Shown one piece after another: positions 34,200 through 34,655 of a stretch of 39,223 bases of DNA (its first letter is position 1; each line of letters starts with the position of its first letter). A model generated the notes under the pieces. The model was not told the origin of the DNA and did not search any database. It worked only from the letters and a program-made list of their open reading frames with translations. The stretch spans positions 1 through 39,223 of the forward strand of contig JAGXOG010000008.1 in assembly GCA_023660015.1 (NCBI GenBank), given 5' to 3'. Source of the DNA: Elusimicrobia bacterium LH_S2. Lineage in GTDB: Bacteria; CG03; SLGR01; JAGXOG01. The position numbers and the translations under genes were made by a program.

Positions 34200-34284
34200 G
34201 CCGAGGTGGTGGAATTGGCAGACACGCATGGTTAAGGACCATGTGGTTTATCCCGTGCGGGTTCAAGTCCCGCCCTCGGCACCA
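34200..34284 (+). tRNA. tRNA-Leu, anticodon AAG, CCA encoded
   Basis: Acceptor arms GCCGAGG (34200-34206) and CCTCGGC (34274-34280) pair fully, with A73 and an encoded CCA. Anticodon stem CATGG/CCATG encloses loop TTAAGGA, so the anticodon is AAG (codon CUU). The long variable arm (TGGTTTATCCCGT) is the class II form expected for leucine, and the T-arm is GCGGGTTCAAGTCCCGC. A34 in bacterial tRNA-Leu is unusual. The 3' end is copied twice downstream. Confidence 0.93.
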
Positions 34285-34302
34285 AAATATAATAAGCGTG
34301 AC

Positions 34303-34416
34303 TTGAAGGGTTTTTCCCGCTCCTAAATGGAGAAAAGGGCAGCGCCCGGCAGGGGAAAACCCCGGCTTTGAGAGAGCGGAAGCAAACGAAAAGAAGTCCC
34401 GCCCTCGGCACCAAAA
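34303..34416 (+). repeat. 114-bp direct repeat, copy 1
   Basis: Identical to 34542-34655, with an offset of 239. It contains self-complementary blocks (GGGGAAAACCCC; CCCGCTC with GAGAGCGG) that could fold, and ends in the tRNA-Leu 3' sequence. Minus-strand frames here give peptides typical of antisense tRNA reading and are not genes. Confidence 0.9.
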
Positions 34417-34442
34417 TATAATAGGCGGGTGCGAAGCGTTAT

Positions 34443-34465
34443 GAAAAACAGTCTAAATGACTGTT
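34443..34465 (+). repeat. Palindromic 19-mer with flank, copy 1
   Basis: AACAGTCTAAATGACTGTT is a perfect 7-bp inverted repeat around TAAAT at 34447-34465, repeated at 34503-34521. The following GAGCACACTTGTT (34475-34487) is also repeated, so the two copies form a roughly 56-bp tandem unit. Confidence 0.8.
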
Positions 34466-34498
34466 CCTCAGGTTGAGCACACTTGTTAGAAGCGTCAA

Positions 34499-34525
34499 GA
34501 AAAACAGTCTAAATGACTGTTTTTT
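34499..34525 (+). terminator. Hairpin with T-run, possible terminator
   Basis: The second palindrome copy gains flanking A and T runs: AAAAACAGTC pairs with GACTGTTTTT (10 bp, loop TAAAT) and is followed by further T. It resembles a weak intrinsic terminator, low in GC, and could end the secG/tRNA-Leu transcript. Confidence 0.4.
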
Positions 34526-34541
34526 AGCGGAGCACACTTGT

Positions 34542-34655
34542 TTGAAGGGTTTTTCCCGCTCCTAAATGGAGAAAAGGGCAGCGCCCGGCAGGGGAAAACC
34601 CCGGCTTTGAGAGAGCGGAAGCAAACGAAAAGAAGTCCCGCCCTCGGCACCAAAA
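34542..34655 (+). repeat. 114-bp direct repeat, copy 2
   Basis: Same sequence as 34303-34416 without mismatch. Exact identity suggests recent duplication or gene conversion. The interval 34656-34693 before tRNA-Cys holds nothing else recognised. Confidence 0.9.

Follow-up and report, generated by a model that had tools for sequence, protein, structure and literature searches.

A tRNA-Leu(AAG) gene in the genome of Elusimicrobia bacterium LH_S2 is followed by two copies of a short structured unit, and we interpret this locus, with moderate confidence, as two arrayed units of a spreading repeat, palindromic and non-coding, which settles in tRNA genes. At this locus, the window (the whole stretch of DNA that was analysed, 39,223 nucleotides) holds the following features.

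34200 to 34284, forward strand: tRNA-Leu(AAG), intact (ARAGORN, Rfam RF00005), with T54 at 34262, R57 at 34265 and A76 at 34284
34265 to 34284, forward strand: native R57-A76 block of the tRNA, copy 1 of the direct arm X (sequence, repeat family D2)
34285 to 34295, forward strand: AT-rich spacer from the CCA to the inverted arm (sequence)
34296 to 34307, forward strand: inverted arm X′ of unit 1, GCGTGACTTGAA, equal to the reverse complement of T54-C65 at 11 of 12 positions
34308 to 34393, forward strand: core of unit 1 (fold, covariance model match, covariation), with P1 formed by 34308-34318 paired with 34352-34362, P2 at 34320-34332, P3 at 34337-34347, CCGGC and a purine-rich tail GAAAAG
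34394 to 34413, forward strand: direct copy 2 of the tRNA R57-A76 block (repeat and direct-copy comparisons)
34424 to 34429, forward strand: GGCGGG, probably the left fragment of arm X′ in unit 2, which the 56-bp repeats divide (sequence, inference)
34433 to 34547, forward strand: two tandem 56-bp palindromic repeats, a separate repeat present at many genomic places (sequence comparison)
34547 to 34632, forward strand: core of unit 2, identical to that of unit 1 (repeat comparison, covariance model)
34633 to 34652, forward strand: direct copy 3 of the tRNA R57-A76 block, with identity extending to 34655

The locus is flanked by secG on one side and by tRNA-Cys, tRNA-Val and thrS on the other. 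The 3′ part of the tRNA, first found at 34265, starts again at 34394 and 34633 (spacings of 129 and 239), and the segment present in all three copies is the terminal 20 nt that run from R57, in the T-loop, to A76. When the flank is included, the exact matches of the tRNA end reach 30 bp between copies 1 and 2 and 23 bp between copies 1 and 3, and the 114-bp repeats at 34303-34416 and 34542-34655 show 100% identity. An earlier note on this DNA had reported the threefold tRNA end, the exact copies, the identical 114-bp repeats and "tandem palindromes" between them; all four observations held, the palindromes being the 56-bp repeats, which separate tRNA-end copy 2 from the second core. It contained neither the inverted left arm, which copies the T-arm of the tRNA, nor the same layout at many other tRNAs. 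The repeat region folded better than its shuffles (z = -3.5, 0 of 100), and the covariance model of the core matched unit 1 over 34305-34365 with an E value of 1.2e-22.

Among named relatives, the metagenome assembly "Elusimicrobia bacterium isolate GH52" (here G001) is the closest, with a thrS that is 86% identical. The cores of the two window units are identical to each other and match that of G001 in only 75 of 93 aligned columns, which points to a recent local duplication or to identity kept by recombination and excludes two old, independent insertions. The same comparison bears out, as local array growth, the stepwise growth by recombination that the earlier note had offered as one of its two readings.

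Throughout the family, a unit is laid out as an intact tRNA, a spacer of 6 to 46 nt, the inverted arm X′, the core and the direct arm X. Arm X′ has the reverse-complement sequence of the T-loop and T-stem of its own tRNA, from T54 to about C62-C65, and arm X repeats about 20 to 24 nt of the same tRNA, starting with R57 and reaching the 3′ end; because this direct copy stands on the right, the tRNA stays intact. In almost all type A cases, R57 is the first nucleotide of the direct copy, and simple copies without array growth have a target duplication of 20 to 24 nt. Other right copies continue beyond the CCA to include the spacer and X′, and some reach the core, as would be expected of tandem arrays ending in a partial unit. 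The core ends carry no terminal inverted repeats beyond the tRNA-derived arms.

Since the comparison of own versus other arms preselected arm matches, we relied instead on 27 cores for whose choice the covariance model was the sole criterion, without such preselection. An exact 9-nt inverse of the adjacent upstream tRNA was present in 25 of them, compared with 4.8 expected for tRNAs drawn at random from the same genome. Among 119 tRNAs of five genomes, a direct copy of 14 nt or more from the tRNA's own 3′ end lay downstream of 25 (0.085 expected from shuffled downstream regions), and 27 had an anchored inverted copy 9 nt or longer (3.8 expected). Chance does not account for the repeated tRNA ends.

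Some loci depart from this layout. After tRNA-Gly(UCC) of G011 (L136), the tRNA 3′ half is found again, inverted and nearly complete, 40 to 100 nt downstream, with a hairpin interrupting the inverted half and no core present, possibly an arm-only state. In the last repeat after tRNA-Leu(UAA) and tRNA-Ser(UGA) of G010 (L122 and L123), the inverted arm is followed by CC in place of the core; this CC is the perfect inverse of the GG that precedes TTC in the tRNA, and the last copy is perhaps the state preceding core insertion.

The core is about 85 to 180 bp long, and its helices P1, P2 and P3 make a three-way junction. Over 40 aligned matches, in an alignment that was fitted to the structure and whose figures therefore lean towards it, the covariation score was 0.413, compared with 0.124 for shuffled and at most 0.119 for slid controls; two-sided changes occupied 145 cells versus 49, and 10 of the 11 pairs of P1 had changes on both sides. 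An earlier, unfitted alignment concurred (6 of 8 pairs). The P2 block switches between CTCCTAAATGGAG and CATGCTTAAGCATG types. A scan for a terminator role found none.

We surveyed 16 genomes of one small phylum of uncultured bacteria, all of them metagenome assemblies in which copy numbers are possibly collapsed. Searched with a covariance model built from eight examples, the structured core was found downstream of many tRNAs in five of them, namely the window genome (G000), G001, G009, G010 and G011, the assemblies being 67 to 95% complete (67% for the window's own), and 11 genomes had no match. The matches numbered 14 in the window genome, 10 in G001 (the weakest with an E value of 0.07), 12 in G010 (another family of the same order), and 1 in G011 and 2 in G009 (another family of the phylum). 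Under a strict rule, 27 of the 34 non-redundant matches lie directly downstream of tRNAs; by eye, the Arg(UCU) cases missed by this rule are also tRNA associated. In these cases (L033 and L046, from G000 and G001), the core units begin right at the tRNA CCA, with the CCA end inside P1, and the tRNA 3′ half is not copied.

At other tRNA genes, where the earlier note had suggested looking for the 114-bp unit, the exact unit is found at none, but a homologous core is. The orthologous tRNA-Leu of G001 carries two diverged units, and similar units also follow its tRNA-Leu(UAA) and tRNA-Ala(CGC). G010 is the densest carrier, with about a dozen type A units. Altogether, about 20 different tRNAs carry target-matched ends, and many of the tRNA-associated units are decayed copies. 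In an Rfam search, tRNA was the only family above threshold, and phage, plasmid and viral collections gave no match to the repeat family. In the literature, for which our coverage is partial, we found tRNA-tailored palindromic repeats described nowhere. Thus, in comparison with Rfam and the phage and plasmid collections, the family appears to lack homology to any described one.

The cores that follow tRNA-Gly(GCC) and tRNA-Leu(CAA) in G009 are 96% identical over about 182 nt. Their identity begins at the GAA that mirrors T54-C56 and breaks off at the two bases that open the direct arm, and outside it each flank matches its own tRNA. The tRNA-Leu(CAG) gene carries a unit in G011 and none in its congener G012, in which the flanking gene is orthologous. 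At L165, the spacing from tRNA-Leu(AAG) to tRNA-Cys is 13 nt, the empty state of the window site. Together, the retargeted cores of G009 and the occupied and empty pair of congeners indicate that the core spreads and that its ends derive from the target. Judged from these sequences, the repeat is inserted or re-tailored repeatedly without breaking the tRNA.

The mechanism that we favour overall, and to which we give about an even chance, combines insertion into the T-loop, a duplication of about 20 nt, an inverted arm made from the tRNA by template switching, and local array growth. A new copy would enter the T-loop between C56 and R57, duplicating the 20 to 24 nt downstream. Template switching by a polymerase between short inverted repeats would either copy the inverted arm from the tRNA or homogenise the arm to the tRNA; because selection acts on the tRNA but not on the arm, the tRNA sequence would always prevail in such correction. 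Two published accounts describe template switching as homogenising the arms of inverted repeats (PMC8604942) and as studied in Escherichia coli in the form of quasipalindrome mutation (PMC7202029). After placement, the repeated segments may recombine unequally or slip against each other, which would produce tandem units and keep them identical, and unit 2 of the window would have been interrupted later by the two 56-bp palindromic repeats. Host replication or repair acting on the conserved T-loop (TTCRANYCC) would suffice, with no need for a dedicated enzyme, and tRNAs of many kinds would be targeted because this motif is conserved.

Several points weigh against this favoured mechanism. We infer the insertion from sequences, and an origin in one step would require three template switches, which is complex. 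The spacer of 6 to 46 nt between the CCA and the inverted arm has no source in the scheme, duplication lengths are mixed, with some right copies reaching far beyond the CCA, and a transposase outside the families searched (e.g., DDE) would yield much the same geometry. A fully enzyme-free version, in which a self-spreading repeat would use the T-loop of all tRNA genes as microhomology and take both ends from the new tRNA by replication template switching, strikes us as rather doubtful.

Not far behind the favoured mechanism comes a non-autonomous DNA transposon, a tentative but possible reading in which a transposase would cut tRNA T-loops with a 20- to 24-bp target duplication and the inverted arm would be a recognition end, homogenised later. 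The fixed start of the right copies at R57, the narrow length range of the simple ones and the existence of occupied versus empty sites all speak for it. However, apart from the tRNA-derived arms the core ends show no terminal inverted repeats, and among the Cas1, reverse transcriptase and Y1 families no candidate was common to all carriers. Cas1 (PF01867) had no match in any of the five incomplete carrier assemblies, reverse transcriptase (PF00078) was present in G011 only and absent from the other four, and the Y1 (IS200-like) transposase was found in four carriers and in most non-carriers, with no match in the carrier G009. Tyrosine recombinases numbered two in G010 (strong, full-length matches) and three to four in the other carriers, none of them inside a unit; the two of G010 are probably the housekeeping pair XerC/XerD. 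Given the completeness of the assemblies (67 to 95%), each of these enzyme negatives is weak singly, but together they argue against Cas1, reverse transcriptase, Y1 and tyrosine recombinases as agents. Two tyrosine recombinase matches near a tRNA gene in G009 (G009:C127:1160-3078) probably belong to an ordinary integrative element.

Three mechanisms based on these enzymes were considered and set aside. Duplication of a palindromic repeat driven by Cas1, as in a CRISPR array, is attractive in its geometry, but the carriers gave no Cas1 match. For retrotransposition primed by a tRNA 3′ fragment, reverse transcriptase is absent in four of the five carriers, and it is the 5′ side of the fragment, rather than the CCA, that the inverted arm pairs with. 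For IS200-like mobilisation, the G009 assembly gave no Y1 match.

The earlier note had also read the locus as tiny integrative units with att-like ends, and part of this reading survives: the units are bounded by tRNA 3′ ends, differ between tRNAs, and occur at orthologous sites that are occupied in one genome and empty in another. What finds no support is a dedicated integrase, which that reading implies, or an autonomous parent, and ordinary integrative elements do not remake an inverted left arm for each new tRNA. In its specific form, the units would be remnants of very small integrative elements of the T-loop class of tyrosine recombinases, with the direct copies as attL and attR, which we consider improbable. 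The R57-A76 copies are indeed shaped like sites of T-loop integrases, with the tRNA left intact, and the integrase of phage Ms6 recombines inside the T-loop and requires identity through the tRNA 3′ end (PMC1762012). Yet Ms6 integration drops steeply with single core mismatches (PMC1762012), whereas here one core serves tRNAs of different sequence. Moreover, the two tyrosine recombinases of G010 face about a dozen type A units, and the scheme gives the inverted arm no role.

Less probable still is a functional structured RNA in tRNA 3′ trailers, kept by selection for processing or for an arm that switches between the T-arm and the downstream copy. The core covaries strongly and each arm closely complements its own tRNA, which would fit such a role, but hairpin-mediated spreading explains the covariation as well. 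The distribution is patchy, the repeat being lacking at most tRNAs and in 11 of the 16 genomes, orthologous tRNAs of congeners are empty, units are interrupted by other repeats, and many copies are decayed. Finally, an assembly artefact or chance repeats, which a fragmented metagenome assembly of 67% completeness with exact 114-bp repeats might bring to mind, can hardly be credited given the same layout with diverged sequence at many tRNAs in independent assemblies of five species, the copy number in the window itself being assembly based.

Other small repeats were observed near tRNAs. After tRNA-Ala, tRNA-Pro and tRNA-Thr of G010 (L115, L119, L148, L245 and L252), a second family of small structured inserts shows the motif GGGGTGACAG-hairpin-CGYCA-GGGGC..GCCCCTATG; its direct tRNA copy (25 to 33 nt) starts nearer the tRNA 5′ end, in the T-stem or the variable loop, and there is no clear inverted arm. 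A third hairpin type, CCATGCACC-ACGTG-GGTGCATGG, stands directly after the tRNA CCA at L114, L123, L126, L148 and L249 of G010, with the tRNA's own CCA forming part of the stem. The 56-bp palindromic repeat, GAAGCGTTAAGAAAAACAGTCTAAATGACTGTTTTTTAGCGGAGCACACTTGTT, found at 34433-34547 of the window, also occurs at L002-L008, L035, L053 and L010, in both orientations and often within tRNA-associated units, and has relatives at many sites of the window genome. It lies in the P2 hairpin loop in G001 and between X′ and P1 in the window, and its insertions have no obvious target duplication. Elsewhere in the window, a perfect 11-bp tandem repeat, AAACGACCGAT, is present in three copies at 468-500, immediately upstream of the first large ORF.

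Mobile repeats normally have fixed ends, whereas this one has the ends of its target, in one orientation on the left and in the other on the right. It would be a natural record of a tiny element that changes target with neither guide nor integrase, and the set of occupied and empty sites can distinguish among template switching, transposition and site-specific recombination. Like bacterial palindromic repeats of the RPE-like and MITE-like kinds, the tRNA repeat is short, non-coding, palindromic, multi-copy and dispersed. REP and REPIN elements are short, structured, extragenic, hairpin-forming repeats mobilised by RAYT (IS200/IS605-like) transposases. In contrast to them, the target here is the tRNA T-loop, the target sequence is duplicated, and the carrier G009 has no Y1 match. 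Some casposons insert at tRNA 3′ ends with a target duplication, which here is 20 to 24 nt in simple copies, and CRISPR adaptation likewise gives an array of palindromic repeats with inserts between them; in contrast to both, the carriers have no Cas1, there are no terminal repeats beyond the arms, and the inserts are of one family. In sponge mitochondria, repetitive hairpin elements have spread between genes with a scattered distribution (PMC2800124), but those are mitochondrial, and tRNA-tailored arms are not described for them (PMC2800124).

Genomic islands and prophages of the T-loop class, such as Ms6, share with the tRNA repeat the duplicated 3′ part of the tRNA, the boundary in the T-loop and the intact tRNA (PMC4383910, PMC1762012). 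However, island sizes peak at 13.6 and 39.9 kbp, while the present units are gene-less and 85 to 180 bp long, have an inverted arm and ends that vary with the target, and come with no dedicated integrase that we could find. Duplications of tRNA 3′ ends, a marker of genomic islands, can thus come from elements of about 100 bp, which calls for caution in island calling. The Rickettsia palindromic elements (RPE) are non-coding palindromic repeats of 100 to 150 bp whose insertion does not destroy the genes that receive them (PMC3767692). The tRNA repeat resembles them in size and form, in being non-coding and palindromic, and in keeping its target gene; RPEs are described in reading frames, and the available part of their description mentions no target-matched arms, whereas the present repeat targets the tRNA T-loop and has ends that match the local tRNA.
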